Source of the DNA: an uncultured Bacteroidales bacterium
Lineage (GTDB): Bacteria > Bacteroidota > Bacteroidia > Bacteroidales > Paludibacteraceae
Direction of reading: 5' to 3'
Length of the DNA: 64,000 nt
Assembly (NCBI GenBank): GCA_902778935.1
Contig: CACYZT010000004.1
Span: 106,034-170,033 of the forward strand
Shown here: one piece after another, positions 6,140 through 32,266 of the stretch
How the letters are laid out: each line of letters starts with the position of its first letter
Position numbering within the stretch: the first letter of the stretch is position 1
The notes under the pieces: model-generated
What the model was told of the DNA's origin: nothing
Databases searched by the model: none
What the model saw: only the letters and a program-made list of their open reading frames with translations
Translations under genes and position numbers: made by a program

Positions 6140-6297
6140 AAATAAACAAAGATAAAAACCTCATTGTCTATTGCACATACGTGCTCTGTGTATTAGTCCG
6201 CTTGACCATCTATAAAAACAAGCTTTTCTATCTGTTCAATCGCCCTAATCCACACTCTGACGAGTAATTGACAATTCGGCGATAAACATAAATAAAT
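6140..6297. repeat. Cloverleaf intergenic element, copy E
   Basis: The left flank (6140-6157) and right flank (6281-6296) match those of the other copies. Helices are P1 6163-6172/6266-6275 (ATTGTC-T-ATT with AAT-T-GACAAT), P2 6173-6176/6181-6184 (GCAC/GTGC), P3 6188-6196/6245-6253 (GTG-t-ATTAG with CTAAT-c-CAC), P4 6200-6204/6219-6223 (GCTTG/CAAGC) and P5 6254-6257/6262-6265 (ACTC/GAGT). P1, P2 and P5 abut without gaps. The element ends at the stop codon of the alpha-galactosidase gene and lies upstream of susC. Confidence 0.75.
6147..6154 (-). promoter_or_regulatory. Possible -7 promoter box for susC
   Basis: On the minus strand this reads TATCTTTG and fits the Bacteroidota -7 consensus TAnnTTTG. 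It lies 55 nt before the susC ATG. No clear TTTG sits at the -33 spacing. The box is part of the left flank of cloverleaf element E. In the other copies the same position reads TATCTTGG, TATCTATG or TATTAGGT and does not fit the consensus. Confidence 0.4.
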
Positions 6298-8231
6298 TAT
6301 TTTTCTATTACTTTTAATAGGTAGTTGCGCTCGAAGTTCACTTCTATCTTCGGGTCAGAGCCCTTGACGGTGAATTCACGCGGTTCGTCCGCTGTATATT
6401 CGATAGCGGTATATTCTTTGGAAGGATCGAGTCCGCGGAGCTCCAGTGTGCCCCGATAAGAAGGAACAGGAACCGAAGCGGCATCTACATGCGCCGGATC
6501 CATCGCACCCTCCGGAGCTATTGGATCTACATAGAAGGCATAGTAGAGCGCATCGTTCTGGCGAATGACATGTCCCTCGGGATAGTCATAACCCCATGTA
6601 TAGAGATTGAGATACTCACCGCGGGCGAGGTTGTTCTCCTTATAGATCTTCATCCATTTGCGGATGAGCGCCTCTTTCTCCGGCGTCAGCAGGAAGGGAC
6701 CTTCGGACCAGTTCGGGTTATCTTTTGGCCATGTGAACTTCGTTCCGATAACGGAACCGGTACCAATCTGCGAAGCGAAATCATCGCCTCCGTCGGTCAG
6801 CTCCACATGGTCGCCATAATAAGCGAGTTGCGGCGCCATAGCGGCATACGCTTTGCGTTTCATACGCACCTGACGGGAAGACATCGGGTCAGAAGCCACA
6901 GCCTGGTTAATCTCCGGCACGAGGAAATAGTTGACCGCACAGCCGCAAGGGCATACCTGAATGACTGCATCCGGCTTCATAGCGCGTGCCTCGTCATAAA
7001 TCTTACCGAAATAAGACGGCATCTGCTCCGGAGCATCCCACGGGCTTTCCAAACCGGAAGCTTCGTTATAATCCGGCATACAGCAGTTGAGGTGCTGACC
7101 ATCGATTTTGAGACCATCGAAATTCCATCTGCGGAGGAACATATCGAGCAGATCTTTCGTATAAGCATCAGTTACGGGGTTCACCGGCGAGAGATACCAA
7201 CTGTCCCACCATGTGATATACTCATTGGACCATTCCTCGGTCTTGAGCAGCATCTCCGGGTGCTCTTTGAGAATCTGTGTGCCCGGGTCAGCAGCCAGCG
7301 ACGCCCACCACAGTTTGGCTTTCAAGCCGCGCTTATGGCACTCGTCCGTGATATGACGCATATCTTTGTCTCCACCCGGGAAAAGTTCGTTGGTATTCCA
7401 GTCGCCTTCGGCAATCTGATAACCATCGTCTATATCGACCCATGTGAAACCGAGTTCCGCCACTTTATCGAGCGTACCCAGCACCATGCCCATCTCAAAC
7501 GGACGTCCGTAGCCCCATGCGCACCAAACCGGCTCAAAAGCCTGCGGCTCCGACGGCTTCATCTGCACGCCTTCGTTAGCCTGCATATAATCGGAGAAGA
7601 TACGGAGAGCATTGAAATAGTCGCCCTTATGGCTCAGGCGGAAAGCCTTGAAGCACTTGAGCGTGTCGCCCTGCGCCAACTCTACCGGCTTCGGTAGGTC
7701 GTAACGCAGCGCCATGGTGACCTTGTTATCATAGCGCTTCCACTCCACGGGCATGGAAATCATACGGAGCACGGGCTCGAACAGACCGATAGCCATACCA
7801 CCGTCGCGCTGCCAGAGGTCCACCACAGGAATACCGCCTCCGTAATCGGAGTTATTCATACCGAGATAGTTCTGCTTAGCGAAACCCTCCTGCACAGGCA
7901 GCACCCAGTCCATACGCGCGTTGGACGAAGACGGCTGGAGCGACCAAACGACGCTATCCTTTGCCTCTATCTCCGTGCGGCACAACTCATAGGCCTTTAC
8001 CGTCACAGGCTTACCTTCATTAACGAAGTAAGTCTCGACAACCTCCAGTCCATCCACACCTTCTACGGGCGTGACGGTCTGATGCTTCACCACTTGGATG
8101 CCATTCGCTTTATACGGGAACGATGCCATCTCCGCTTCCGCGCAGATGAGACGCTCCGTCTGCGGCTTCGAGCAAGCGGACATACACAAGACCGCTGCGC
8201 TCAGAGACAAAAGATAAAAGACGTTTTTCAT
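6297..8231 (-). CDS. Clan GH-D (GH36-like) alpha-galactosidase lipoprotein
   Basis: The product is 644 residues with a lipoprotein signal (LCMSAC, Cys20). Residues about 30-220 form a beta-rich N-terminal domain. A TIM barrel follows, with GFTWVDIDDGYQIAEGDWN, HKRGLKAKLWW and WNFDGLKIDG; the Asp in LKIDG is the expected nucleophile. VCPCGCAVNYF and VASDP are the region of the acid/base. Known relatives release alpha-linked galactose or, in some cases, alpha-N-acetylgalactosamine. The nearby galactosamine catabolic genes make GalNAc plausible as product, but the sequence alone does not decide it. It is probably surface or periplasmic and lies in the operon upstream of susC. Confidence 0.8.
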   Translation of the reverse strand: MKNVFYLLSLSAAVLCMSACSKPQTERLICAEAEMASFPYKANGIQVVKHQTVTPVEGVDGLEVVETYFVNEGKPVTVKAYELCRTEIEAKDSVVWSLQPSSSNARMDWVLPVQEGFAKQNYLGMNNSDYGGGIPVVDLWQRDGGMAIGLFEPVLRMISMPVEWKRYDNKVTMALRYDLPKPVELAQGDTLKCFKAFRLSHKGDYFNALRIFSDYMQANEGVQMKPSEPQAFEPVWCAWGYGRPFEMGMVLGTLDKVAELGFTWVDIDDGYQIAEGDWNTNELFPGGDKDMRHITDECHKRGLKAKLWWASLAADPGTQILKEHPEMLLKTEEWSNEYITWWDSWYLSPVNPVTDAYTKDLLDMFLRRWNFDGLKIDGQHLNCCMPDYNEASGLESPWDAPEQMPSYFGKIYDEARAMKPDAVIQVCPCGCAVNYFLVPEINQAVASDPMSSRQVRMKRKAYAAMAPQLAYYGDHVELTDGGDDFASQIGTGSVIGTKFTWPKDNPNWSEGPFLLTPEKEALIRKWMKIYKENNLARGEYLNLYTWGYDYPEGHVIRQNDALYYAFYVDPIAPEGAMDPAHVDAASVPVPSYRGTLELRGLDPSKEYTAIEYTADEPREFTVKGSDPKIEVNFERNYLLKVIEK

Positions 8232-8243
8232 ATACTTATTTAA

Positions 8244-8400
8244 GTAAATAAAACCTAATAAACCCTTTTAAATGCTTTTGAGCTTTGCTCTACGCGTGCT
8301 TAGTTGTTAAAATCACTTGTGAGTAAACTCCCAGATGAATTTACCACCTAACCCCGCACTCCGACGAGTAAAGCATTTAAAAGCAATAAACATAAATAAA
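8244..8400. repeat. Cloverleaf intergenic element, copy A
   Basis: The helices are P1 8265-8278/8370-8383 (14 perfect bp), P2 8280-8283/8287-8290 (GAGC/GCTC, loop TTT), P3 8294-8303/8348-8357 (GCG and TTAG paired with CGC and CTAA across a small internal loop), a short P4 8315-8317/8322-8324 and P5 8358-8361/8366-8369 (ACTC-CGAC-GAGT). The right flank is 8384-8400. The element fills nearly the whole gap between the amidohydrolase and alpha-galactosidase genes. Confidence 0.8.
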
Positions 8401-8419
8401 ATATATATTCTATTGTGTT

Positions 8420-9517
8420 TTATTTATACTCCGTAAGGATTCGCTCGGCATTGTCATGATAAATCTTCTTCAGCACTTCGTCCGGCAGATTGAATGCAGA
8501 GAGCGCCCAATGATAGCCGTACTCCATGTTGTAGAAATGCTCGTCGTTGGTCTCCAGCACACGGAAGATAGCGCGGTACATCTCCGGATCGAAACCATTA
8601 TCGGTACCGAAGAGGACGCGGTCCTGATATTTAATAAGGAACTCACGCGTAGCGCGCGGCGTATGCGCGGACTCAGCAACACGAGCAGAGATATCGACAT
8701 ACATATTCGGATATTTATCCAGCAATGCGCCGAGGCGCGGCCAGTCGTGGCTCATGTTCAGGTAATGGCAAGCGATGAAGATGGTGTTCGGGTTCTCGCG
8801 TACGGCGTTCTCAAAGGACTCCATGAGTTTGTTGTAGCCATAGCAGTTGGTGGTGTCCACATGCCAATTGACAGCATTCACCAGACCGTCATTCGTCTCA
8901 TCCATCGGCAGATACATCCAGTACGGCTCTGCGATATGGATACTAATCGGCATCTTGAGTTCCGCACATTTGGCAATGAGCGGCCGGATGCGCGGGTCAT
9001 CGATATGGATATCCTTGCCCTCCACCGGACGAGCATAGGTATCGCCTTCGCCTTTATCGCCGAGTTCACCGACACCGGTAGCACCGAGTTCGTTATGATA
9101 GCGCTCAAGCAGGGCACAAGCTTTCTCGATACCCTCCGGCGACATGTCGCTATAATCGAAGCAGCACCAGAAGCGGAAGCGGTCTTTGTAGGGGCCATAG
9201 AGCTCTACTACCTCCTCAAAGGGACGACCGATCCAGGAGCAATGCATAATAGCAGTGTGCAGCACGCCGACCTCATCCATATTCTTGCACCACTGGGCAA
9301 TCTCCTCCGCATTCGCGCAATAGTCATGGGAGTGCATGTCGATAATATCGAACTTAGCACGCTCCACGCGGGTAGCAGGGATGTTGTTCACTACGGTCGG
9401 ATTGAAATCACGGAGCAAAATCTTATCCGTGGGATTAGCCGACTGCTCCGCTTTTTGGGACGGATTACAAGCCACCAAAATGGCCATCGAAACCAAGAAA
9501 AATATCTTCTTCATCAT
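8420..9517 (-). CDS. Amidohydrolase-family lipoprotein (TIM-barrel metal hydrolase)
   Basis: The product is 365 residues with a lipoprotein signal (ILVAC, Cys18). The barrel starts with a metal-binding His-x-His motif in FDIIDMHSHD. It continues with ISIHIAEP, FIACHYLNMSHDW and a late VLFGTDNG, which carry the further metal ligands expected of the amidohydrolase superfamily (amidohydrolase-2 type). The substrate is unknown. Because it is exported it is unlikely to be the cytoplasmic sugar-6-phosphate deacetylase. It is the first gene of the minus-strand operon and is transcribed away from the DeoR regulator. Confidence 0.7.
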   Translation of the reverse strand: MMKKIFFLVSMAILVACNPSQKAEQSANPTDKILLRDFNPTVVNNIPATRVERAKFDIIDMHSHDYCANAEEIAQWCKNMDEVGVLHTAIMHCSWIGRPFEEVVELYGPYKDRFRFWCCFDYSDMSPEGIEKACALLERYHNELGATGVGELGDKGEGDTYARPVEGKDIHIDDPRIRPLIAKCAELKMPISIHIAEPYWMYLPMDETNDGLVNAVNWHVDTTNCYGYNKLMESFENAVRENPNTIFIACHYLNMSHDWPRLGALLDKYPNMYVDISARVAESAHTPRATREFLIKYQDRVLFGTDNGFDPEMYRAIFRVLETNDEHFYNMEYGYHWALSAFNLPDEVLKKIYHDNAERILTEYK

Positions 9518-9549
9518 GATATTGTGATTATAGCAAATTTTTCACGTTG

Positions 9550-9557
9550 CAAAATTA
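9550..9557 (-). promoter_or_regulatory. -7 box for the amidohydrolase/alpha-galactosidase/Sus operon
   Basis: The minus strand reads TAATTTTG, matching TAnnTTTG, 33 nt before the first ATG. I see no TTTG at the -33 distance, so the promoter may depend on an activator. Confidence 0.5.
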
Positions 9558-9646
9558 CTACATTTTTTTTATATAGCATAATAATTTAATATGTTATACA
9601 GCATATTTTTCGTGTTTTACACAACTAACACACTATAAGTCAGTAT

Positions 9647-9698
9647 ATTACGAAACAAAAAACGATATTTCGTAATGTTTCGAAAATAGTATCGAAAC
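9647..9698. promoter_or_regulatory. TTTCG-type operators between amidohydrolase and deoR
   Basis: There are two adjacent inverted repeats: ATTACGAAA/TTTCGTAAT (9647-9655/9668-9676) and GTTTCGA/TCGAAAC (9677-9683/9692-9698). They contain the octamer TTTCGAAA, which recurs upstream of the agaS-like gene. TTTCG-containing repeats are typical binding sites of DeoR-family sugar regulators. The cluster sits just upstream of the deoR promoter, so autoregulation is likely. Confidence 0.6.
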
Positions 9699-9706
9699 TT
9701 TTTTTA

Positions 9707-9738
9707 TTTGCATATTTCGGAAAAAAAGTGTAACTTTG
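9707..9738 (+). promoter_or_regulatory. Promoter of the DeoR-family regulator
   Basis: TTTG at 9707-9710, 20 bp, then TAACTTTG at 9731-9738 is an exact Bacteroidota sigma-factor promoter. It would start a leader of about 200 nt that includes a hairpin-rich repeat array (9754-9920) before the regulator ATG. Confidence 0.8.
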
Positions 9739-9753
9739 CCGGCGAAATTGATT

Positions 9754-9920
9754 AGACCGCTGCGCTGACGGACCACTGCGTTGACAGACCACTGCGTTGA
9801 CAGACCGTCCTGCGGACTGACAGACTGAATTACCGACAGAGCGATAGAACGAGAAATCGATATATCGAAAGACCGCTGCGATGACGCACCACTACGTTGA
9901 CGGACCGTTGCACTGACAGA
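9754..9920. repeat. GACC/TGAC hairpin repeat family, copy 1
   Basis: This is a run of related 16-17 bp units (for example GACCACTGCGTTGACA twice in tandem) with a GTCC-TGC-GGAC hairpin (9808-9818). AT-rich text and further units follow up to 9920. The same words occur at 10932-10999, 16811-16940 and 25901-25972. It lies in the 5' leader of the DeoR-family gene. Confidence 0.7.
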
Positions 9921-9951
9921 AAAAAGAAGAAAGACATAAAATACAGATACC

Positions 9952-10728
9952 ATGAATACTTCTTCGGCAAAGGAACGCAGGGCGCTGATATTGCGCATGC
10001 TGGAACAGGAACAGGAAGTTCGTGTGACCGACATCAGTCGGGAGACGGGCATTTCGGAAGTGACTATTCGAAAGGATTTGACGATTCTTCACAACCGTCA
10101 TTTGCTCTTGCGTACGCGCGGAGGGGCTATGCGCAAGCCTGTGGATAACCCCAATGAAGACACGACGATAGCGAAGAAGCGGATGTTCAATTTCAAAGAG
10201 AAAGAGCGCATCGGCGAAGAGGCGGTGAAGATGATTAAGGAAGGTGATTTCATTATGCTTGATTCGGGTACAACGACCTTAGAAGTAGCGCGTCATTTAG
10301 GCAAATTCCAACATCTGCGTATATTGACCAATGCGATGAACATAGCTACGGAGCTGATGGTCTATAAGCGCTTTGACGTAGTGCTGCTTGGCGGCAACGT
10401 GCGCGTGAACAGCCATTCGATGGTAGGTCCTTTAGCACTATCGGTGCTTCGTAATTTCCGAGGATACAAACTGTTTCTGGGCGTTGATTCATTCTCGGTA
10501 GAAAACGGTGTATCCACTCCGAGTCTGGAGGAGGCGCTTCTTAACCAGATGATGATTCAGCAAGCAGGCAAGGTGATAGCTGTGTTTGATTCCTCGAAAT
10601 TCAACAAGCGGAGTTTTGTGCATATCGCCGAGACGAACGAGTTGGACTGCATCATCACCGATAATGCCATACCGGCGGGGATATCCACGAAGCTGCAGAA
10701 GCTTGGGATTGAGGTAAGGCTGGTATAG
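9952..10728 (+). CDS. DeoR-family sugar-operon repressor
   Basis: The product is 258 residues, normal for the family. The N-terminal winged-helix domain (about 4-60) contains ERRALILRMLEQE, VRVTDISRETGISEVTIRKDL and RTRGGA. The C-terminal sugar-phosphate sensor domain contains KERIGEEAVKMI, DSGTTTLEVARHL and LLGGNVR. Relatives such as AgaR and GlpR are released from DNA by phosphorylated sugars. It is divergent from the glycan operon, and TTTCG operators flank its promoter and also occur before the agaS-like operon. It probably controls both operons in response to a galactosamine or tagatose phosphate; this is inference. Confidence 0.88.
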   Translation: MNTSSAKERRALILRMLEQEQEVRVTDISRETGISEVTIRKDLTILHNRHLLLRTRGGAMRKPVDNPNEDTTIAKKRMFNFKEKERIGEEAVKMIKEGDFIMLDSGTTTLEVARHLGKFQHLRILTNAMNIATELMVYKRFDVVLLGGNVRVNSHSMVGPLALSVLRNFRGYKLFLGVDSFSVENGVSTPSLEEALLNQMMIQQAGKVIAVFDSSKFNKRSFVHIAETNELDCIITDNAIPAGISTKLQKLGIEVRLV

Positions 10729-10751
10729 CCCTCTGATAGTTTCTAATAGAA

Positions 10752-10910
10752 AATAAACCAAGATAAACCCTTTCATCGGCAATTCGCTCTGCCGAGCCTA
10801 CGAGGCGCCACCGCCATGTCTCCCTAAAAGTAAACTTTTCGGTAGCCCTTGCGGCTACGCCTCACCTCCGAAGGAGGTAATTGCCGCAGAAAGCGATAAA
10901 CATAAATAAA
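10752..10910. repeat. Cloverleaf intergenic element, copy B (divergent)
   Basis: The flanks match the other copies (10752-10769 and 10894-10910), but the core is GC-rich and unrelated in sequence. The same architecture is kept. P1 is 10770-10784/10879-10893 with CTTTC/GAAAG and CGGCAATT/AATTGCCG around a 2x2 loop. P2 is 10786-10789/10794-10797 (GCTC/GAGC). P3 is 10802-10807/10858-10863 (GAGGCG/CGCCTC). P5 is 10864-10869/10873-10878 (ACCTCC-GAA-GGAGGT). An inner AAAAG/CTTTT hairpin is at 10826-10839. The element begins 23 nt after the deoR stop. Confidence 0.7.
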
Positions 10911-10931
10911 TTTTAATGCTCTGCATTGAAC

Positions 10932-10999
10932 GCTGCCAGGTGTGACCTCAGAAGACAGACCGTTGCACTGACAGAACGTCCTACGGACTGACAGACTGA
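10932..10999. repeat. GACC/TGAC hairpin repeat family, copy 2
   Basis: It contains a 31-bp word (10932-10962) and a 32-bp word (10968-10999), both repeated without a mismatch at 16815-16845 and 16853-16884. The second word holds a GTCC-TAC-GGAC hairpin. It lies just beyond the terminator of the giant secreted protein gene. Confidence 0.75.
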
Positions 11000-11028
11000 T
11001 TTACCGGAACGACTGAGATAAGAGAAAC

Positions 11029-11059
11029 AAAAACAGCCCGCATTGAGCGAGCTGTTTTT
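11029..11059 (-). terminator. Terminator of the giant beta-helix protein gene
   Basis: AAAAACAGC (11029-11037) pairs with GCTGTTTTT (11051-11059). On the minus strand the stem ends in a T run, about 20 nt after the stop codon at 11078. Confidence 0.75.
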
Positions 11060-11077
11060 GTATAGAATCCTAATGGA

Positions 11078-14000
11078 TTACTTCACGGGTTGACCGGTAA
11101 CGGTGTAAACCTTGTCACCACGGAGGATGAAGATTTGACCGTTCTGGAGAACTTTGACTGCCTTCACAGAAGCATCGATATTCTCGAAGCCTTCAGCCTT
11201 CTTGTCATAGAAGTAGAGGTTAGCGAATGCTAACGGATTACCCTCGAAGCTCTCGCCAGCCGGAGTCTTGTAACCCTCCAGAACGAAGCACTTCAGATTA
11301 GCGAAGTCATACTCACCCGTCCAGGTTGCGATTTCGATATCCCAGCTGGTCCAACCTTCTGCAAGTTCAAGAACGACACCGTCTTTGTAGTTGCCACCGG
11401 CAACAGCCTCTGCAGTGAGTTTAATCTGTGCAGCAGCCGGAGCCCAGAAGTCAACGTGGAGTTTCTTGTAACCACTGAAGTCATGGATCGAATCGGTGTT
11501 AACCGGATCGATAACGCACTCCCAAGTCATAGCCTTCCAGTAAGCAATCTTCGTGTCCTCAATGTTGAGGGTCTCGTAAGCACCAGCCCATCCAGAGATA
11601 CCGAAGTGGAGGTTGTTCGTCTTGTAGTAGTCACAATAGATAGCCATTACATCCTCTTCCGCCTGAGTCGGAGCAGCAGGAGCGGTAGTCGGACGTGCAA
11701 CCGATTCCTCAGCAGAGATGAAGTAGAGCTGGAGGGCATTGTAGTAGGAAACAGCGGCAACGATGTCGTATTTCTTACCTGCCTCGAAAGCATACGCTAA
11801 TTTGAATTTGTTGTACAGATCAATAGCCTGGTTGCCCACGTTAATGTTGATTGTAGTCGATTTCGTAGTAACGAATGCTGTATCGGCTGCAAACTCAATA
11901 CCTCTTACGACGATATACTTGTTCATATCCAAGGAGTCGCTGATGAACGTCTTCTCTTCCGGAGCAGGAGCTGCACCTTCAGCAACGATGACATTCTTCA
12001 CTTGGTTGGTATCCGGTTTGAGCTCATAGAGACCATTGTAGATATCAATCGGAGCTACAAGACCTGTGAGTTGGTCACCGGCCTTCCATGCAAAGTTCGT
12101 ATTCGGCATGTAAAGCAACATTGCACCAGCCTCATCCTTAACAAAGACATTCTTGCCGTTCACATAGGTAACCGTTACCGGATTCAGATTGACTACGTCA
12201 TTCTTAGCCATCGAGTAAACCTCAAGACAGTTCTTCAGAACGATGAGTTCCGGATAAGCAACTTCGAGTGTCTGAGTAGCGAAGGTATAAGTGAAGGTAT
12301 ATTCACCAGCCTGGTCAGCAGTCATGTGCATGTTGCCATCACCGGTAGCGAGGCAAGCCGAAGGAGCCTCACGGGTGATGTTAGCACCATTAGCTTTCCA
12401 AGTACCATCGAACTTCATACCGAACTCATAGGTCTTAGCCTCGAGATTGAGTTTAAGGCTTGCGGTCAAGCTGTCAGCAGCCAGCGTGAACGGATCGGTA
12501 GTAGCCCAGTTAGGATTGGTGAAGGTACCATGCATCGTAACAACCGGGATAACAACAGCATCAGCAGTCTTCTGAGCAATTGCACTAATTCTCAACGAAT
12601 CAGCTTCAGCGTTCGGGTTGAACAGGATTGTGATGGTATAAATACCAGCCTCCGGAATCGGGAGAACATAATCACTTGCCGGCCAAGCGTGTGCCCAAGC
12701 GTGATCCTCACAAATCTTGAACTTAACCTCACCAGCTGCGAGAGCAACGCCAGTTTTCTCCCAACCATAGAGGTATTCAGAACCTACCAAGTGCTCCATG
12801 TCATTAGCAGCGTACGAAGAAGCCCACTCTTGTCCGAACAACGTAGCAGGAGCACCTGCAACGGTGTATGTATGCTGCGGTTCCGGAGTTTCCGGATACT
12901 TGAAGCCCAGGAGCTTAATGGTTGTGCCCTTGGCAGCCAACGTATAGGTATGACCTTCTACGAGTTCAAATGCCTTACCAATGTAATAGTACGAAGAGTC
13001 TACCAGAACAGAATCCTCTACCATCGAAGCAGCAACCAACTTGGTTGTCGGAGCAGCCTGGTCGAAGAGAATCATATCCTTGTTGTCGTTCTCCGTCCAT
13101 TTCTTGTCAATAGCCTGGCGAACGTAGTAGAGGATGAACGGCGCACTCTTCTTAGCCGTAATCACGAGCGGAGTGCTACCGTCTTTCTTCGTACCCGTAG
13201 GATTCTCTGCGGTCGGGAAGTTATCTACGCGTACTTGGATAGCGTGTGTAAAGGTCTCGTCGAAGATGTTAGCGCTGTGCTCAACAATCGTGCCCTTGTA
13301 AACCGTCTGAATCTTCATGTACTCGTTGTCCACGTAGATAGCACCGGCAGCAGTGTCGGTAGCAGCTACAGCCTTGTAGAGAGCCATCGGGATAACCGGA
13401 GTTGGCTCGATATACTTACCAAGCAGGGTAGCGGTAATCGTAGAATCAGCAGGATTGAGAACGAAGGTTACAGTATCCTTAGCAGCAATAGTGTCGCCAA
13501 GGAAGTTAGCCATCGGTACCCAAAGTTCAGGAGCACCCAGGAGGTCAGACTTATAGTTGACACCCGTACCACCGAAGACAACGTTCTCCAGTTTGTAGTT
13601 GTCACCGTCCTTGGTCATTTCTTTCCAAGTCCACTCTTCGCCTGCGCCCCAGTTATTCTTGAGAGAATAGTTAACTTCCGGTTGCGGCTCTGTACCGTTT
13701 ACGTTAAGAACAGTGAAGGAATAAACGCCGTCTTGCCACTGAACGGTAACTTCAGTCTCTTTAGCAGTGAAGGCAGTGAGATAGAAGATAACGCCAGCAC
13801 CCTCAATTTTGTATTGGTCAGCAGCCAGCGAGATATTGCCAATAACAGCATCAGGGAAGGTCATATAGATACCTGTACCGGTAGCAAAGCCCGGAGTCTG
13901 GATATTTACAACGGTCGGAACATCACCATCCTTGCAAACCTTGAATTGGTTAGCATAGGTCTGCTCCTGACTGCCATCACCGAGGAACGGTATATTGTTC

Positions 14001-15880: not shown

Positions 15881-15938
15881 ACGATTAGAATTTTGTTAAT
15901 AAATTGGTTAAATTAATTGATTGGGTTGTTTTTGATAA

Positions 15939-16657: not shown

Positions 16658-16693
16658 AGTTGACTCCTTTCTTACAGATTTTTAATTCGGCTG

Positions 16694-16724: not shown

Positions 16725-16775
16725 GAAAAAGGAGAAAAAAATATTTTTTTTAGTAAATTGTGGCATAAAATCAAT

Positions 16776-16796
16776 GGTAAATAAACATAGATAAAG
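16776..16796. repeat. Solo flank of the cloverleaf element
   Basis: This stretch matches the left-flank sequence of the cloverleaf copies (AAATAAACATAGATAAA) but no P1 arm or hairpins follow. It could be the footprint of a lost copy or an unoccupied site. Confidence 0.5.
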
Positions 16797-16810
16797 AAGT
16801 GTTTAGCACA

Positions 16811-16940
16811 GACCGCTGCCAGGTGTGACCTCAGAAGACAGACCGCCTACGGCTGACAGAACGTCCTACGGACTGACAGACTGAATTACCGAGAAATCGA
16901 TATAACGAGAGATCGATATATCGAAAGACCTTTGCTCTGA
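16811..16940. repeat. GACC/TGAC hairpin repeat family, copy 3
   Basis: It shares 31-bp and 32-bp words with copy 2 and contains two triloop hairpins of one design, GCC-TAC-GGC (16845-16853) and GTCC-TAC-GGAC (16863-16873). A stretch of related ATCGATAT words follows, also present in copy 1. It lies between the TA-like operon promoter and the 11-bp array. Confidence 0.7.
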
Positions 16941-17020: not shown

Positions 17021-17049
17021 AAAACAGCCCGCGGGGTGCGAGCTGTTTT
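17021..17049 (-). terminator. Terminator of the metallophosphoesterase operon
   Basis: AAAACAGC (17021-17028) pairs with GCTGTTTT (17042-17049), with extra GC pairing inside. On the minus strand it ends in four T residues, about 60 nt after the stop at 17107. The stem resembles that of the terminator at 11029-11059. Confidence 0.7.
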
Positions 17050-17106
17050 GGGATAAATGATGATGAATGAGCGGGCAATGGAATTGCCCTGCTAATAGAC
17101 ATACGA

Positions 17107-23498: not shown

Positions 23499-23502
23499 AC
23501 TG

Positions 23503-25887: not shown

Positions 25888-25900
25888 TTTATTGCTTCGC

Positions 25901-25972
25901 AATGACCGCTTCGCTGTTGGACCACTGCGTTGTAAGACCGTTACTCTGTAAGACCGTCCTTCGGACTGTAAG
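25901..25972. repeat. GACC/TGAC hairpin repeat family, copy 4
   Basis: It contains units GACCGCTTCGCTGTTG, GACCACTGCGTTGTAA, GACCGTTACTCTGTAA and a GTCC-TTC-GGAC hairpin. It follows the same plan as the other copies with TGTAA in place of TGACA. It fills the gap between the PfkB kinase and the first metallophosphoesterase gene, so it lies in the transcript. Confidence 0.65.
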
Positions 25973-25978
25973 AATTTA

Positions 25979-26923
25979 TTAGCTCCAGCCGAAGCGTTCA
26001 CGGCCGATGCGCTCTACGTCTTCACGGCAAGTGAAAGCGGTGGTGCCACCGGCTGCGGTGGTATTGACAGCACCGGTCATGTTACCATATTCCTGACACT
26101 TATCCAGCGGATCACCTGCTGCAAGACGAGCGATGAAGCCCGAGTTGAAGGAGTCACCGGCACCGATACAATCGACTACATTCTTATTGAGCAATGCAGC
26201 TTGCTTGCGGTCGGGTTGGCCTTTGCGCATGAGGATAGAGCCCTTGCTACCGCACTTGATAACTGCGGCGTTGGTGTAAGGACGGATCTTCTCGATGGCC
26301 TCTTCCAAGGTCTCGGAACGCGTGAGGAACTTGAGTTCGGTCTCATTAGGCATGAAGACGGTGAGCATAGGGAGGACGGCTTTGTAGTCGAGGTCCCATT
26401 GCTCTGTCGGGTCCCACTGGCTATCCAGCGTGACGGTAACACCATTCTCCTTGCAAAGCTCAAGAATCTTCATGAGGTCACGTTTGACACCACTCTGCAT
26501 GTAGATAGAAGAGATATGGATATGCTTGGTCTGCTTGAAGACCTCGGGGTTGATGTCTGCCAGTCCCATATAATCCATGGCGCCCTGATAAGTCAGGTTC
26601 GCACGGTCCTCATCATAACTCATACAGATGGTAGCGCCGGTAGCATACTTATCCTGACGGATGAGATAGCGTGTGTCCACACCTTTTGCGCGAAGGCTCG
26701 ACTCCACGAGGTCGCCGAAGCTATCGTTGCCTATCATACCGCAGAATGCCACTTTAGCACCCAGTGCGGCTGCGTTCGCAGCGAAGATGGCAGTAGAGCT
26801 ACCCAATGTAAGGGTCATCTGCTTGGCAAACTTCTCTTTACCGATTTCCGGTTCGCCTTCTATCTGATTGAGAATCAAATCGACGTTTAACTCGCCTAAG
26901 GCGATGATATCAAATGGTTTCAT
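25979..26923 (-). CDS. PfkB-family sugar kinase (candidate tagatose-6-phosphate kinase)
   Basis: The product is 314 residues, normal for the ribokinase/PfkB family. It has the N-terminal signature IIALGELNVDLI and the Gly-rich LTLGSSTAIFAANAAALGAKV. The C-terminal GAGDSFNSGF carries the catalytic Asp and anion hole. It is cytoplasmic. Beside AgaS- and GatZ-like genes the expected reaction is phosphorylation of tagatose 6-phosphate to the 1,6-bisphosphate. The sequence does not distinguish this from 2-dehydro-3-deoxygluconate or fructose kinase activity. Confidence 0.82.
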   Translation of the reverse strand: MKPFDIIALGELNVDLILNQIEGEPEIGKEKFAKQMTLTLGSSTAIFAANAAALGAKVAFCGMIGNDSFGDLVESSLRAKGVDTRYLIRQDKYATGATICMSYDEDRANLTYQGAMDYMGLADINPEVFKQTKHIHISSIYMQSGVKRDLMKILELCKENGVTVTLDSQWDPTEQWDLDYKAVLPMLTVFMPNETELKFLTRSETLEEAIEKIRPYTNAAVIKCGSKGSILMRKGQPDRKQAALLNKNVVDCIGAGDSFNSGFIARLAAGDPLDKCQEYGNMTGAVNTTAAGGTTAFTCREDVERIGRERFGWS

Positions 26924-26957
26924 TGTTGTTGGGGTTAGAGGGTTAGAGGGTTAGGGG

Positions 26958-28325
26958 TTATTGGTATTTTTTCCAAAACTCGGCTATCATCGAATACCAA
27001 TTCTTAGGATAGTCATGCGTCATATCGGGATAGAAATGATATTCCTTGTCCGCTTCGGGTGTCTTCAGATTGTTGAAGGGCGCGATATTGGTATGCGGCG
27101 GGCAAGTGCCATCCTTCAGACCGCTCGTAGCGAGTACGGCGCAGGAGATGCGCGTAGCCAGATTCTTGGTATCGAAATAAGAGAGGAAGGTGTACATCTC
27201 TTCGTCCGTCATTCCTTTCTTTTTCGCTTCCGCTTTTGCGGTAGAGCCAGGCCAGTCCACAATCTTGAAATAATCCGGGAAGTCACCCAGGAATGCCACA
27301 TTGGGCGTGATAGCCTTGAAGGGATAGTCACTCAAAGCGGCAGCGGCATAGCAGAGCGCACCGCCCTGGCTGGAGCCTTCGGCGAAGATATGCTCCATAT
27401 CGCTGGTCTCGCGGGTAGCCATAAAGCGCACCGCTTGGACTACATCCATGAAGGCACCGCGGTAGTAATAGCCGTCCTTGTCTCCGAAGTTATATGCAAA
27501 CCAGTCGCCGTAGATATTAACGGTTTCCTCATCCACGCCGGGGTTCGTTCCCGCAGGGCGGTTGTTGAGGTACTGTCCGCGATGGGATACATAGAACTCA
27601 GCATAATTGGATGAGCCGCCCATCGGGCACTCGCATTTGGACTTGCTGCCCTGTGTGTCATATCCGAAGAAATGGAGCAGTACCGGATGCTTGGCGCCGT
27701 CCGTCGGTTCGCAATAGTATCCGCGAATCTTTACCGGTTCTCCGGTCAGTCCATCGGGCACGGAGTAGAACTCCACCAGATAGACCTTGCGTTTAGCGCT
27801 GCTATTCTTCTCTATCTCGGTTAGCGTAGGATTCATCTCCACTGCAGCGAGTTGGTCTTTCGCAGTCTGCCAGAACTGGTTAAAGTCCGGTTGCATATCC
27901 GGGGCAGAGACGATATCGAAGGGGTCGATACCGAAAGGTTGATTGCGCACGGTCTTGCCATTCACGAGGCAAAGCGCACGGTAGAAACCGGGAGCCATAT
28001 CCTCGGTGGTGGTGACGGCGTAGTTACGCTTCGAATTGCCCGCCACTTTCACTGTATCATCCATCTCCACTATCAGCTGCTTCATATCAGAGGTGATACG
28101 AATCTTTATCGGCATGGCTGCTGAATCGGGTTCGGTGTTCTCCAATGTGATATTGAAATAGGGTCTGGCATGCCAAATCATGTCTTCCGGCTCGACCACC
28201 GTTGTATCGTGCGGATTCGGCGTCGGGTCCACCTTCGGGTCAACAGGATTCGGTCGCTCGCAGCCGCATGCGCCCAACATCAGGACGCATGCTACTGCTG
28301 CTACTATAAAGAGTCTGCTTCTCAT
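26958..28325 (-). CDS. Acetyl-xylan-esterase-like lipoprotein (AXE1-type deacetylase)
   Basis: The product is 455 residues with a lipoprotein signal (LGACGC, Cys20) and a Pro-rich linker. A beta-rich N-terminal domain (about 50-130) is followed by an alpha/beta hydrolase (about 140-455). The nucleophile elbow is AEGSSQGGALCYAAA (Ser), and the His lies near the C-terminus in MTHDYPK. AXE1 and cephalosporin-C deacetylase relatives remove acetyl groups from sugars. Its start overlaps the gatZ-like stop (ATGA), so it is in the same operon. It may deacetylate the imported glycan outside the cytoplasm. Confidence 0.75.
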   Translation of the reverse strand: MRSRLFIVAAVACVLMLGACGCERPNPVDPKVDPTPNPHDTTVVEPEDMIWHARPYFNITLENTEPDSAAMPIKIRITSDMKQLIVEMDDTVKVAGNSKRNYAVTTTEDMAPGFYRALCLVNGKTVRNQPFGIDPFDIVSAPDMQPDFNQFWQTAKDQLAAVEMNPTLTEIEKNSSAKRKVYLVEFYSVPDGLTGEPVKIRGYYCEPTDGAKHPVLLHFFGYDTQGSKSKCECPMGGSSNYAEFYVSHRGQYLNNRPAGTNPGVDEETVNIYGDWFAYNFGDKDGYYYRGAFMDVVQAVRFMATRETSDMEHIFAEGSSQGGALCYAAAALSDYPFKAITPNVAFLGDFPDYFKIVDWPGSTAKAEAKKKGMTDEEMYTFLSYFDTKNLATRISCAVLATSGLKDGTCPPHTNIAPFNNLKTPEADKEYHFYPDMTHDYPKNWYSMIAEFWKKYQ

Positions 28326-29551
28326 TTCAGATAGTCGTTAAGATTAACGATATTGAATGCATTGTAGTACTTATCCATATTATGCTCAATACGCATGAGT
28401 ACTATCTCCTCCGCCTGAATACCGAGGCGCTCGAGGTTATCGTACAGCATCTGACGAGCAACGAGAGCTTCGGGTTTCTGCCAGATATAACGGCAGCCGG
28501 TCTTCACGAGCCAGAGTTGACGCTCCTTAGTGCAGTCCTTGAGGTCTTTACCTACCTCATCGCCACGGAGCCATTTCTTCCAGCGATTCGACTCGTAAAC
28601 ACATTGCCAGAGCACCTGGGTCATGTTACTCAATTGGGCCACCTTGCCTTCTGCATGCAGTTTCTTCTCTTCTTCCTCGAGTTCAGCTAATGCATCGTAC
28701 TCGTTCATGGTGAACTCCGGACCTACGTTAGCAGCACCCATGCCTGCCTTCGGGTAGTCCTCCGGGTTGTCCACATCATCGGAATAGTGGCCCTTGATAT
28801 AACTGCCGTACGGGCGTACCTTAGCCGTCAGCTTGCGGGCTACCTCGGCGTCAAAGAACGTGGTATGCAGGTCGGTGCCCACTTTGCCCACGATGAAGCA
28901 TGGCCAGATGTCATCCAGACCTACCTCGTGCAGACCGGCTTTCAGCCCCTCAAGGAAGGTATCGAAGGTCTTCTCGTCAGCCAGACCGCCGTGTACCTCT
29001 TCGGTTCCTACTTCGTAGGAGATAGGAGCGATGTTGTGTGCTTTGCGGAAGTCCTCGGCATGCTTGATCAGCTCAACCGTACGTTTCACCACCACATGGA
29101 TGTCGATGATCTGACCTTTCGGCAGGAAGATATCCACTGTCGGGTCCACGTGAATGAGGTCATAACCGGCGAGGAGAGCCGCCTCGTAACTCTTCTTCAC
29201 ACCGTCCATGGCACGCTCGGTGTCCCAGCGCTCGATGCTCTGTTTGTCTTTGAGCCACGGACCGCCGTGGTCAATCGCCACTACGTATGGACCCGTGTAA
29301 TGAACGGCTGCCGCCTCACGAGCCAGGATCTTCGTGAAGACCTCCTGTGTCATACCCGTATAACCACCATCGCAGTCCACCTGATTGAGGGTGGTAGCGA
29401 AATAAATAGGCGCGTTGTTACGTTTCGCTGCGCGGAACGAAGCCTTGATTACCGACAGGGAGTTCGGGCAAGCTGCAAAGAGCGTCATAGGAACTCCAGT
29501 TGCTTTTTTACGCTCCTCCATTACGCGGAGGATATTCTCAGTTTTTGCCAT
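28322..29551 (-). CDS. gatZ: Tagatose-1,6-bisphosphate aldolase subunit GatZ/KbaZ-like
   Basis: The product is 409 residues, close to the usual length. It matches the GatZ/KbaZ family along its whole length, with RVMEERKKATGVPMTLFAAC, ATTLNQVDCDGGYTG and YEVGTEEVHGGLADE. In enterobacteria this protein supports a catalytic class II aldolase (GatY/KbaY) that splits tagatose 1,6-bisphosphate. No GatY gene is next to it. The nearest class II aldolase in the window is at 54263-55264. It follows the agaS-like gene by 41 nt, and that gap contains tandem ATTTACAATT words. Cytoplasmic. Confidence 0.87.
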   Translation of the reverse strand: MAKTENILRVMEERKKATGVPMTLFAACPNSLSVIKASFRAAKRNNAPIYFATTLNQVDCDGGYTGMTQEVFTKILAREAAAVHYTGPYVVAIDHGGPWLKDKQSIERWDTERAMDGVKKSYEAALLAGYDLIHVDPTVDIFLPKGQIIDIHVVVKRTVELIKHAEDFRKAHNIAPISYEVGTEEVHGGLADEKTFDTFLEGLKAGLHEVGLDDIWPCFIVGKVGTDLHTTFFDAEVARKLTAKVRPYGSYIKGHYSDDVDNPEDYPKAGMGAANVGPEFTMNEYDALAELEEEEKKLHAEGKVAQLSNMTQVLWQCVYESNRWKKWLRGDEVGKDLKDCTKERQLWLVKTGCRYIWQKPEALVARQMLYDNLERLGIQAEEIVLMRIEHNMDKYYNAFNIVNLNDYLK

Positions 29552-29592
29552 AAGGAAATTTACAATTTAGATATTTACAATTTATTTACAAT

Positions 29593-30714
29593 TTATTCAT
29601 AGATGGTGACACCTTCAACCACGCGGTGGATGTTTCCGGAAACGGAGGGAGCATCGGGGTTGAGATTGTGTGCACAGGAAGCATAGTATCCGAGGAGCTG
29701 ACCGACGAGAACGTACGGTACGATACCATAGAAATCGGTCTCGGCAGGGCTGTACGGCATGCAAACCATGAGGTCGGCCTTCACACCATCCAGAGCCGGT
29801 TTGTTACCAGCAATAACGATGATTTGCGCCACCGGCTTGTTGTTACTATCCACCTGACGAACGAGGTCACGCTCATAGCGCTGTACTTTCTCGTCATCAA
29901 CCATGAGGTAAACGACAATCGACTTGCTGTTCACCACCGCCTTCGGTCCGTGACGGAAGCCAAGGAAGCTATCGAACTTGCAGACCACAGCACCGTCGGT
30001 GAGTTCCTGCAGTTTGAGATGGCACTCCTCTGCGATACCCTTGAGAGCACCGGAACCGAGGAAGACGCCACGCTCGAACGGGCGCTCGGCGATAGCTTTG
30101 AGTTTGTCCTCATACTCCGCGATAACCGCCTCTGCATTCTTAGCTGTTTTCTCGATTTTGTCGATGTCCTTGTCCAGCGTGTCGATATGACCGAGCATGA
30201 GGCACGTGAGCAACATCGTAGAGAAGCTACTGGTCATAGCGAGCGACTTATCGTCCGTCTCTTCGGGCAACAGGAGCAGAAGGATGTTGTCTTGTCCGGC
30301 AGCCTGGAGGGCGAGGTTACCATTCTTGTTGCAAGTGATATAGACGTGTGCTACATTCTTGCAGTGTTTGTTAGCGAGATTGACCGCTCCGACGCTCTCA
30401 GGGCTGTTACCGGAACGTGCGAAGCTGACGAGCAGCAACGGGCGCTCTTTGTCGAGCAGGTAATCGGCATGGGTGATGATATCGGTGGTGGGCACGGAGC
30501 GCACATTACGCCACATACCGCGCATAACCGGCAGAAGCGCATCTCCGATGAACGCCGAAGTACCGGCACCGGTGAGAACAATATCGGTGTCCGGGGTTAA
30601 ATACTTGTGCATAAAAGCACTAATCTCAGCCTTTGCTTTGAGCAATGTCTCGAGTTCCTTGCGCCACATAGCGGGCTGCTGATGGATCTCATTGAAGGTA
30701 AAAGAAGTTGCCAT
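29593..30714 (-). CDS. agaS: AgaS-like galactosamine-6-phosphate deaminase/isomerase (SIS domains)
   Basis: The product is 373 residues with two SIS domains. The first contains VLTGAGTSAFIGDAL and SFARSGNSPESVGA, both typical of AgaS. The second contains GSGALKGIAEECHLKL and FRHGPKAVV. AgaS converts galactosamine 6-phosphate to tagatose 6-phosphate and ammonia. The neighbours (PfkB kinase, GatZ-like subunit, DeoR-type operators) fit this pathway well. First gene of its operon, with TTTCGAAA operators and a -7 box upstream. Confidence 0.87.
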   Translation of the reverse strand: MATSFTFNEIHQQPAMWRKELETLLKAKAEISAFMHKYLTPDTDIVLTGAGTSAFIGDALLPVMRGMWRNVRSVPTTDIITHADYLLDKERPLLLVSFARSGNSPESVGAVNLANKHCKNVAHVYITCNKNGNLALQAAGQDNILLLLLPEETDDKSLAMTSSFSTMLLTCLMLGHIDTLDKDIDKIEKTAKNAEAVIAEYEDKLKAIAERPFERGVFLGSGALKGIAEECHLKLQELTDGAVVCKFDSFLGFRHGPKAVVNSKSIVVYLMVDDEKVQRYERDLVRQVDSNNKPVAQIIVIAGNKPALDGVKADLMVCMPYSPAETDFYGIVPYVLVGQLLGYYASCAHNLNPDAPSVSGNIHRVVEGVTIYE

Positions 30715-30772
30715 ATTGTTATAGTTTAGAAATGATATACGTTGTTTTACGTAGTAATTTTATTTGACGGCG

Positions 30773-30780
30773 CAAAATTA
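30773..30780 (-). promoter_or_regulatory. -7 box of the agaS-like operon
   Basis: The minus strand reads TAATTTTG, 59 nt before the ATG. No matching TTTG is seen at -33. A palindrome GGTATT-TT-AATACC (30793-30806) sits where an operator or activator site could be. Confidence 0.5.
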
Positions 30781-30816
30781 CAACATATTTTTGGTATTTT
30801 AATACCATTTTTTATG

Positions 30817-30906
30817 CTTTCGAACATATTTCCTATTTCGAAATATATAAGTAACTGATTATAAGCGACTTGTATTTTTTATTTCCGTTTTCGAAACGTT
30901 TCGAAA
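30817..30906. promoter_or_regulatory. TTTCGAAA operator cluster upstream of agaS-like gene
   Basis: Sites are CTTTCGAA (30817-30824), the palindrome ATTTCGAAAT (30835-30844) and two TTTCGAAA octamers spaced 10 bp apart (30889-30896 and 30899-30906). The same octamer occurs at 9678-9685 beside deoR. The shared motif links the regulator to this operon. Confidence 0.6.
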
Positions 30907-30960
30907 AAAGATGATACAAAAGGAGATAAAAGAAGGCGCAAGGTATTCGTTTCTCTCTTG

Positions 30961-31081
30961 TTGGTATGCTGTTGATATGCTTAATGTATCGTGTATCTAA
31001 CGTATATGTATCGTATATCTATCGTATATGTAACGTAGATAAAGGCGGATTAGAAGCGGATTAGAAGTAGATTAGAAGTAA
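30961..31081. repeat. 11-bp-period tandem array 2
   Basis: There are eleven consecutive 11-mers without slippage. They drift from TTGGTATGCTG through TATGTATCGTA/TATCTATCGTA/TATGTAACGTA to GATAAAGGCGG and three ATTAGAAG-type units. It lies 29 nt beyond the hairpin at 31111-31140 in minus-strand sense. Confidence 0.8.
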
Positions 31082-31110
31082 AAAAGAGCGCAGTGTCGCA
31101 GGAATACAAA

Positions 31111-31140
31111 AAGCAGCACCTTCAGTCGAAAGTACTGCTT
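31111..31140 (-). terminator. Terminator-like hairpin
   Basis: AAGCAG (31111-31116) pairs with CTGCTT (31135-31140). The inner arms pair with two mismatches around an AGTC loop, and on the minus strand a five-T run follows. It could end transcripts coming through the CBM9-like gene and cloverleaf copy D. Confidence 0.6.
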
Positions 31141-31180
31141 ATTTGCTGTAGTTACGTTATACTAATGTAAGATATACTAC

Positions 31181-31300
31181 CACTATTGTCCCATAAAAAA
31201 GAAAATAAACTAAGATAAACCACTGGTGTCCCATAAAAAAGAACAAAAACATAGATAAACCACTGGTATCCCATAAAAAAGAAAATAAACCAAGATAAAC
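31181..31300. repeat. Tandem array of three 40-bp repeats ending in the cloverleaf flank
   Basis: The units are 31181-31220, 31221-31260 and 31261-31300. Each starts CACTRTTGTC or CACTGGTRTC, continues CCATAAAAAAGAA and ends in the AAATAAAC..AGATAAAC flank of the cloverleaf family. Element D begins directly after unit 3. There are no unique spacers, so this is not a CRISPR array. Confidence 0.8.
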
Positions 31301-31440
31301 CCTTTGAGTGCTTTAGAAGCGATGCTTCTTTGACAAATTGCTACTAAAATCTGCTTGTAAGCAAGCTCACAGACAGCTTTTACTACCAATTTGTACAACT
31401 CTACGAGTACAAAGCACTCAAAGACATAAACAAAAAAACA
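31281..31440. repeat. Cloverleaf intergenic element, copy D
   Basis: The helices are P1 31302-31314/31411-31423 (13 perfect bp), P2 31315-31320/31324-31329 (AGAAGC-GAT-GCTTCT), P3 31333-31340/31387-31394 (ACAAATTG/CAATTTGT, 8 perfect bp), P4 31353-31357/31362-31366 (GCTTG/CAAGC) and P5 31398-31401/31405-31408 (ACTC-TAC-GAGT). The right flank is 31424-31440. It lies 51 nt after the stop of the CBM9-like gene on the minus strand. Confidence 0.8.
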
Positions 31441-31491
31441 TTTTCAAATCAAATCCGTTCACTCAAACGCTAAAGATAGTCCGTAGTAAGG

Positions 31492-32061
31492 TTATTGTAA
31501 CTCTATCTCTCCGAAGAACTGGGGGCAATGGAAGTTCGGTTGCGGGAGGGGGATAGGTTGCCAAGAGAGGTAATGGGGTTGTTTGGTTTTATCGGCACAC
31601 TTATAGAAGTTCAGGCGCAGTTTTTGCGGGAAGTGAGGCTTGGTGTTTCGGAAGACAAGAGCGAGCGGAATACGCAGTTCGACCGTCCATTCGAAGAGTC
31701 CGTCTTTCTCTTCGAAAGGTTTGCGCGGGAAGGTGCATTTACGTTCAATTTGCTCCATTTCATCGGGAGAAAATGGTTGTACGTCTTCATCGCGTCCGCG
31801 GCGCCGAGAAGCCACCATGGCGCCGATACAATTGGTTTCAAAATTATAGTAATAGGGTTCTCCGGGCACCTGGCAGAAGAACTCGACGCAGGAGTCTTCC
31901 CACACCTGTCCTTGGTCGTGAGCCGTAACGGCACGGAGTTGCTCGCCCTTGACGGAGTACTTGAGGTAGAGCGCTTCGCGGTCGTTGGTCACATCGACAG
32001 ACACTACTGGTTTCTCCGGGAACTGAGCGGGCCAGTTGACACAATCAATATTCAGTTTCAT
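31492..32061 (-). CDS. CBM9-like (DOMON-fold) protein, no signal peptide
   Basis: The product is 189 residues without a signal peptide. It resembles the carbohydrate-binding family 9-like proteins common in Bacteroidota, with ALYLKYSV, the acidic VWEDSCVEFF, the aromatic YYYNFETN and the closing HYLSWQPIPLPQPNFH. The role of the cytoplasmic members is not known. It is preceded by cloverleaf copy C and followed by copy D, so it is framed by two of these elements. Confidence 0.72.
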   Translation of the reverse strand: MKLNIDCVNWPAQFPEKPVVSVDVTNDREALYLKYSVKGEQLRAVTAHDQGQVWEDSCVEFFCQVPGEPYYYNFETNCIGAMVASRRRGRDEDVQPFSPDEMEQIERKCTFPRKPFEEKDGLFEWTVELRIPLALVFRNTKPHFPQKLRLNFYKCADKTKQPHYLSWQPIPLPQPNFHCPQFFGEIELQ

Positions 32062-32102
32062 GGTTAAAAATAATTAAACAATAGTAGTGATGTGTTAATT
32101 TT

Positions 32103-32266
32103 AAACAAAAACATAGATAAACCCTTTTGAAGGCTTTATGAGCTTCGCTCTATGCGTTATTAGCTGTTAAAACTCCCTTGTGTGCAAGCACCAAGATGAC
32201 TTTTACCATCTAATCCCGCACTCTAACGAGTAGAAAGCCTTCAAAAGCAATAAACATAAATAAATA
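32103..32266. repeat. Cloverleaf intergenic element, copy C
   Basis: The helices are P1 32124-32137/32234-32247 (14 perfect bp), P2 32140-32143/32147-32150 (GAGC-TTC-GCTC), P3 32154-32163/32210-32219 (GCG and ATTAG paired with CGC and CTAAT around a 2x2 loop), P4 32177-32180/32185-32188 (CTTG-TGTG-CAAG) and P5 32220-32223/32228-32231 (ACTC-TAAC-GAGT). It fills the gap between the kinase and CBM9-like genes. Its core is clearly homologous to copy A, but P1 differs on both arms. Confidence 0.82.

Follow-up and report, generated by a model that had tools for sequence, protein, structure and literature searches.

Cloverleaf-forming intergenic repeats of a Paludibacteraceae genome as mobile elements, and their association with GxxExxY nuclease genes

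In integron attC sites it is the structure, and not the sequence, of a folded single strand that is kept, IS200/IS605 elements cause no target duplication, and REPINs are inverted pairs of repeats with a transposase gene beside them. REP and REPIN elements are described as mobilised by RAYT (TnpA-REP), a Y1/HUH transposase (PMC3116915, PMC6006769, PMC8266576, PMC3733652), REP palindromes as bearing a GTAG or CGTC tag at their foot (PMC3733652), and IS200/IS605 elements as recognised through subterminal secondary structures of a single strand (PMC6006769). Here, we analysed a window of 64,000 nucleotides from an uncultured Bacteroidales bacterium of the Paludibacteraceae (assembly GCA_902778935.1, contig CACYZT010000004.1, positions 106,034 to 170,033; genome G000 below), which contains five intergenic elements sharing one cloverleaf fold. 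We read these elements as non-autonomous mobile repeat copies that are recognised, and mobilised, in the form of a single folded strand, and give this reading a probability of roughly 0.52. The window copies probably work like REPINs, with a GxxExxY nuclease and without a Y1 transposase. The best-supported components are that a single folded strand is selected, that copies move as units, that close pairs stand head-to-head and that a PD-(D/E)XK gene is present in the apparent autonomous form.

Like REP and REPIN elements, the cloverleaf elements are small, intergenic, structured, gene-free and amplified within the genome, and, like the inverted pairs of REPINs, cloverleaves less than 150 bp apart are mostly oriented head-to-head. 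Unlike the 20-40 bp REP/REPIN palindromes, they are about 160 bp long and form a four-way junction in which the helix sequence is nearly free, and the gene associated with them encodes a PD-(D/E)XK protein. A RAYT or IS200-type transposase was rejected as the mobilising enzyme, since no match to the Y1 transposase family PF01797 was obtained at E <= 0.001 in six element-bearing genomes (G000, G001, G003, G005, G028 and G035); PF01797 matched in 22 of 61 genomes (18 over the cut-off), including the element-bearing G002, G007, G017 and G034. The system thus works like REPINs but fails on the enzyme by which they are defined. With IS200/IS605 the cloverleaf shares the absence of target duplication but not, in the six genomes named, the Y1 transposase, while integron attC sites differ in that the cloverleaf is four-way and has direct-repeat ends. 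The first three elements of the window alternate with genes, as integron cassettes might; this candidate was dropped on finding the neighbouring genes together in element-free relatives, and no integrase search was made.

All five elements reported in a preliminary description of this DNA were recovered by a covariance model of 53 base pairs (R2, which superseded R1 with 19 pairs), as follows.

E1, 6139..6296, minus strand (sense = minus): cloverleaf between direct repeats 6142-6156 and 6282-6296 (plus-strand coordinates); R2 111.4 bits, E=4e-19; site without the element in the relative G003
E2, 8245..8400, minus strand: cloverleaf element, right direct repeat 8386-8400; R2 126.3 bits; not in G003
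E3, 10750..10910, minus strand: cloverleaf element with the ACCTCC-GAA-GGAGGT hairpin variant, direct repeats 10751-10767 and 10896-10910; R2 110.2 bits
E4, 31282..31440, minus strand: cloverleaf element, left direct repeat 31283-31299, right repeat degenerate; R2 122.1 bits
E5, 32104..32264, minus strand: cloverleaf element, direct repeats 32107-32121 and 32250-32264; R2 136.9 bits; not in G003
E5, outer-stem arms: 32124-32137 (CTTTTGAAGGCTTT) and 32234-32247 (AAAGCCTTCAAAAG)

E4 is likewise not in G003, with one of its flank matches being weak, and the site of E3 has no match on both sides there. Elements are about 158-165 bp long, and in all five the common fold that had been proposed was found, with an outer stem (P1) enclosing a first hairpin (H1), a long mismatched arm (H2) and a last hairpin (H3). 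The described differences between copies in the P1 and P3 arms were borne out, as was the P5 hairpin: four copies have ACTC-N3/4-GAGT, and the remaining one has ACCTCC-GAA-GGAGGT. Other details needed revision. The AT-rich flanks are present, but they are near-identical direct repeats of the pattern ATAAAC[AC]nA[AG]ATAAA, which has 8 matches in the window at up to two mismatches against 0.17 expected. P1 was said to pair over 9-14 bp in each copy, whereas the first copy has only about six uninterrupted P1 pairs. Finally, the helices nearly abut, as claimed, but not without gaps: a linker, commonly of 3 nt, separates the long arm from the last hairpin.

On the strand given in the preliminary description, the junction appeared in four of the five minimum-energy folds, copy 2 being rearranged, while on the opposite (minus) strand it appeared in all five. 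The analysis was extended to 115 elements, which are those within retrieved loci and a subset of all matches; fold counts cover the 110 of them with lengths of 135-210 nt. Exactly three branches inside one stem were obtained in the minimum-energy folds of 83 of the 110 copies, compared to 4-11 of 110 in five rounds of shuffling. The complementary strand gave the same arrangement in 71 of 110, and this count therefore does not choose a strand. In the RNA-energy folds, first hairpin loops of the type C(GNA)G or C(GNNA)G were present in 41 of 83 copies and last hairpin loops of this type in 38 of 83, and the tip of the long arm was often CTTG, TTTA or CTCG. Such loops are expected to be especially stable in DNA.

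For covariation, 102 sequences of 145-170 nt were clustered at 80% identity into 53 representatives. The 53 sequences counted are also those from which the R2 structure was built, so that the figures lean towards the structure, and slid and shuffled controls were used. In a plain sequence alignment of the representatives, 73.7% of cells were paired compared to 53.2% after shuffling and at most 54.9% after sliding, and the covariation score was 0.512 compared to 0.199 and at most 0.221, respectively. Two-sided change was seen in 52 of the 53 pairs; since the shuffled mean was already 48, it is the paired-cell and covariation figures that carry weight. Among 126 model-aligned matches the values rose to 82.1% and 0.617 in an alignment that itself leans towards the structure, and a single P1 column there held 44 G-C, 44 U-A, 11 A-U and 7 C-G pairs. 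Every helix co-varies, H1 being the weakest with 61% of cells paired. The proposal that the structure is the conserved feature was thereby borne out over the 53 representatives: further copies exist in relatives searched with the covariance model, their helices co-vary, and the structure of the elements is what is kept. Nor does the family have a name in Rfam 15, which gave no match above its gathering threshold on the 64,000-base window; a scan of 6000-11000 returned one weak match off the elements (E=0.56) and none on an element at E <= 5.

The fold described for the plus strand is real, but the type of mismatch and the wobble bias show that selection acts on the minus strand of the element. 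Six columns of H2 are usually mismatched, and on the sense strand their 203 unpaired cells comprise 188 purine-purine, 6 pyrimidine-pyrimidine and 9 A/C combinations, with a purine share of 55.5% in the core; in the other 47 pair columns the unpaired cells are 257 purine-purine, 157 pyrimidine-pyrimidine and 108 A/C. Wobble pairs in H2 are likewise one-sided, with 252 G.T against 49 A.C (506 against 313 in shuffles). Fold energy was also lower on the minus strand in all five window copies, but shuffled sequences showed an asymmetry in the same direction in 313 of 330 cases; base composition alone produces it, and the lower energy is no evidence by itself.

Whether the selected strand acts as DNA or as RNA was approached through z-scores under both sets of energy parameters. 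With DNA parameters, the minus strands of the five window copies scored -4.9, -9.5, -6.4, -8.7 and -7.8, and over the 53 representatives the minus strand averaged -7.58 and its complement -4.56. RNA parameters gave -5.90 and -5.10, and favoured the minus strand in only two of the five window copies. The energy models favour DNA over RNA moderately, and only moderately because nine control tRNAs shift towards DNA as well. These figures bear on a rival reading in which the cloverleaf is a mobile non-coding RNA, spread by retrotransposition or serving as a guide or cofactor of a nuclease, with GxxExxY as its partner. Strand-specific selection would suit such an RNA, as would the preference of H2 for G.U over A.C, the occurrence of CTTG tips and GNRA-like loops, and the A-rich flanks at both ends. 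Set against it are the relatively better fit of the sense strand to DNA parameters in 47 of 53 representatives (though also in 7 of 9 tRNAs), the scarcity of wobble pairs in P1 (37 of 1695 cells) and the lack of target duplication, and we regard a mobile RNA as rather unlikely.

The genome of the window holds 20 full-length copies together with several short derivatives in which the ends are kept and the arms lost. Among the matches listed, the covariance-model search found copies in 23 of 36 genomes of the same genus and in none of 24 genomes from other families of the order. An exact two-ended pattern matched 15 stretches in a collection of named genomes, with titles of Bacteroidales or Paludibacteraceae, some from sheep or roe deer gut. 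Carriage by phages or plasmids was rejected: the same pattern had no match in viral contigs, E5 had none in plasmids and phages, and the GxxExxY gene was found in no phage and in 5 of 72,556 plasmid records, with no relative of it obtained by two queries in viral contigs. Some short derivatives retain both ends with only a small hairpin, or fused ends with nothing between (L044 4611-4675, L043 4679-4727, L033 3414-3488, L222 1050-1124, L035 ~7033-7060); they may have arisen by internal deletion or be scars of excision. Other copies measure about 185-205 nt, their arms being longer and their ends unchanged (L273 1690-1874, L093, L276 97-300, L260 1576-1774, L270 4300-4489).

Comparison with relatives supports mobility. 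G003, which has 95% identity in one flanking protein, is empty at all nine element sites that could be matched on both flanks, a count that omits E3, the copy on contig C8 and others without two matched flanks. A tenth site, that of the short copy C9:51413, was matched on one side only and is also empty. By eye, none of the alpha-galactosidase neighbourhoods of 19 relatives has E1 or E2 in place, the gene-end side being readable in 16 of them (two of the others are cut off there by a contig end, and in one the matched gene is a fragment). In G001, a separate element in the opposite orientation occupies the intergenic gap corresponding to that of E2. The closest four pairs within G000 share 95-97% of their core sequence, whereas their flank identities of 0.50-0.68 do not stand out from the background over all flank pairs, which has a median of 0.55 and a 5-95% range of 0.47-0.68. 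The elements are mobile, and their movement as units is among the best-supported steps. In G028 (L257 1601-3002), tandem copies are separated by a spacer of roughly 50 nt that recurs between them (GCTGCACAGCCG...GGCAGGCGCGAA), and as its near-identical copies partly share this spacer repeat, some may stem from tandem duplication. No target duplication was detectable over 108 copies, in which the mean end match was 3.96 compared to 3.82 in shuffled pairs (highest shuffle 4.06). The flanks are A-rich beside both element ends.

Orientation relative to genes speaks to another rival, a leader or cis-regulatory RNA whose minus-strand fold would lie in a 5' untranslated region and control the downstream gene. 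It draws on the RNA-like covariation with wobble pairs favoured in H2, and on G000, where the downstream gene has the same sense in 19 of 26 entries, a count that takes in short derivatives and one solitary repeat; some of these entries are only 13-46 nt from the gene start. This bias did not hold across genomes. Of the 73 single copies with a neighbour on each side, 24 run in the same sense as both genes and 29 run against both, with 15 and 5 mixed, and the downstream gene has the same sense in 39. Furthermore, the sites are empty in relatives that carry the same genes, and divergent genes flank only one of 11 head-to-head pairs. The orientation counts largely refute the leader RNA, which we consider very improbable.

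Elements that lie close together mostly face head-to-head. Among the matches listed, and on contigs with several of them, pairs less than 150 bp apart comprise 9 head-to-head, 2 tandem and 0 tail-to-tail; below 1 kb the numbers are 12, 9 and 1, and below 3 kb 12, 23 and 2. In G028, the same gene lies inside each of two head-to-head pairs with wider spacing; it encodes a 147-aa GxxExxY protein that matches TIGR04256 with 104 bits (cut-off 35) and also PF13366, and belongs to the PD-(D/E)XK superfamily. A related GxxExxY gene in G029 also lies between two head-to-head elements. By coordinates and among the matches listed, 9 of the 25 same-genus PF13366 matches (61 genomes searched) fall within about 100 nt of an element. 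Gene comparisons used 30 retrieved loci, a part of the listed matches. In the clade with at least 66% identity to the first gene there are seven intact distinct genes, all of which adjoin a cloverleaf at 7-27 nt, with the start codon at this distance from the 5' end of the element in six and the stop side 9 nt away in the seventh; three (L265, L268, L293) are located inside head-to-head pairs. Outside this clade, L297 in G002 is flanked on each side by a weaker cloverleaf match (E=6e-8 and 6e-6), and L298 in G003 by a single one (E=1e-5). The PD-(D/E)XK residues D83, E93 and K95 are invariant in the 18 proteins aligned. A search of solved structures gave one chance-level match (E=0.77) for a single GxxExxY protein and none for the profile. 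One GxxExxY protein has a weak Cas4b-like match (E=0.00045), which was not used in the conclusions.

The association between GxxExxY genes and repeats extends beyond this cloverleaf. Sequence to the left of each gene was compared with that to its right, direct or inverted, at a threshold of 25 bits of our choosing, and in each test 28 of 30 loci yielded a gene whose flanks were long enough. Among relatives and the order's other families, matching flank repeats were found for 16 of 28 GxxExxY genes compared to 3 of 47 control open reading frames of the same loci; the seven cloverleaf loci contribute 2 positives, and the remainder 14 of 21. An independent phylum-wide draw gave 19 of 28 compared to 4 of 36 controls (Fisher p = 4e-6), or 12 of 28 compared to 3 of 36 at 40 bits, and some of the controls with matches adjoin those same repeats. 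While the gene beside the cloverleaves is a clear member of the GxxExxY family, the repeats of the other families are not cloverleaves: the flanks of L307-L336 and L277-L291 often carry long, periodic, imperfect inverted or direct repeats of short words (CACAGAG, CACGGA), such as ACACAGAGAGCCACAGAG...CTCTGTGGTTCTCTGTGT. In G049, the repeat flanking GxxExxY has 20 matches on seven contigs, most of them partial; apart from those on a single contig, they span about 40 of 83 bases. In other GxxExxY flanks, purine-purine mismatches numbered 73 outward and 51 inward, and pyrimidine-pyrimidine mismatches 46 and 56. The gene family occurs in 58 of the 118 Bacteroidota genomes examined, with up to 9 matches each. 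In the literature searched, in part by title and the opening of the abstract, nothing was found on the function of GxxExxY/PDDEXK_3 or on a repeat association; GxxExxY occurs in PMC8934634, which has a passage on classifying reverse transcriptases, and in PMC12085832, and PF13366 is named in PMC9756366.

A possible mechanism begins with the GxxExxY protein, or a relative supplied in trans, recognising the folded four-way junction, which would most likely be read as single-stranded DNA exposed at replication forks. A nick at or near the AT-rich ends could then allow the strand to be excised or copied, after which it would be joined into AT-rich intergenic DNA; the window copies would have been moved in trans. 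Selection acting on substrate shape, and not on sequence, would then account for helices that drift under a constant shape with constant ends.

Several observations weigh against the proposed movement of a folded strand by GxxExxY. Neither P1 (37 G.T, 24 A.C) nor H3 (16 and 12) has a clear wobble bias, and the one-strand signal hence comes from H2. The preference for DNA over RNA rests on energy models, in which the nine control tRNAs also shift towards DNA (-0.81 compared to -1.68). Intergenic DNA between species is too diverged for exact insertion junctions to be read, and local GC skew is positive in 8 of 24 cases, giving no clear replication-strand bias. As to the enzyme, among same-genus genomes a PF13366 gene was detected in 12 of the 24 that bear elements and in 2 of the 13 that do not (elements among the matches listed), a trend only (Fisher p = 0.07), and half of the element-bearing genomes are thus without a detected GxxExxY gene. 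These include G005 and G000 itself, where no PF13366 match was found at 1e-8 and no TIGR04256 match at 1e-15 in an assembly that is 90% complete. In addition, 16 of the 25 same-genus PF13366 matches do not adjoin a listed element, and adjacency, seen at the level of sequence, does not prove mobilisation by GxxExxY.

The observations on the enzyme would also suit a reading in which GxxExxY is a passenger, with another recombinase of the host or of an element moving the cloverleaves and the gene having been captured between two of them. Chance capture does not, however, predict that GxxExxY genes of other families also lie between matching repeats, and the spacing of 7-27 nt in seven of seven genes is tight; we find a passenger role doubtful, though worth serious consideration. 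Taking GxxExxY as the mobilising enzyme, a broader and more tentative proposal, which we hold at somewhat less than even odds, is that these proteins serve as the enzymes of mobile elements that form a large class, as yet undescribed, across Bacteroidota. Such elements would consist of a PD-(D/E)XK gene between structured repeats, whose shape the protein recognises in folded single-stranded DNA; non-autonomous repeats would be scattered elsewhere and served in trans, and the cloverleaf would be one family whose helix sequence is essentially free and in which a junction-recognising nuclease replaces HUH or tyrosine enzymes. If true, this would assign a role to an orphan nuclease family that is widespread, add a class of mobile elements recognised by DNA shape and not sequence, and help to explain intergenic repeats situated between genes of one operon. 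The more than 100 sequence-divergent four-way junctions also form a natural library for studying how proteins read structure.

Some copies are associated with an insertion sequence (IS) of the IS4 type, and a miniature inverted-repeat transposable element (MITE) moved by an IS4-type transposase was weighed as a further explanation. In G007, G017, G018 and G022 the cloverleaf lies, by coordinates, 3 nt from a terminal repeat, CACTACTGTCCACTAAAAA, together with which it forms MITEs of about 277 bp in G007 and G018. The same terminal repeat, slightly changed, bounds a 1.3-kb IS in G022 (L250 202-1518, contig 68) that encodes a 405-aa DDE transposase with DUF4372, and the own-genome copies C9:49559 and C1:32921 have one such repeat nearby. 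In this respect the cloverleaves resemble IS4-type MITEs, but only 5 of 115 copies have a terminal repeat 35 nt or less from their 3' end (the MITE-rich G007 being represented by one copy), there is no target duplication, and near-identical own-genome copies exist without terminal repeats. With so few copies concerned, the MITE was rejected as a general mechanism, which we deem highly unlikely, and carriage by it is treated as a side route. A related feature adjoins E4 in the window.

31179..31299, minus strand: three 40-bp tandem units beside E4, each of one direct repeat and a degenerate IS4-type terminal inverted repeat (TTTTTTATGGGACACCAGTGG)

From their sequence, these units look like remnants of an IS4-type end. 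The direct repeat also occurs once on its own.

16779..16795, plus strand: solitary direct repeat without a cloverleaf

Another dispersed repeat family consists of short words in arrays, with GACCGCTGCGCTGACAGACCGTCCTACGGACTGACAG as an example, and is often seen beside cloverleaves; the arrays are located at 9755-9839, 10926-11010, 16811-16895 and 25904-25988 of the window and near L007, L010, L017, L024 and L026. Two similar terminator-like hairpins (AAAACAGCCCGC...GCGAGCTGTTTT) are present at 11030-11064 and 17021-17055. Between 17107 and 26001, three genes, whose motifs resemble those of metallophosphatases, contain related stretches (direct repeats D1, D3, D4 and D6).

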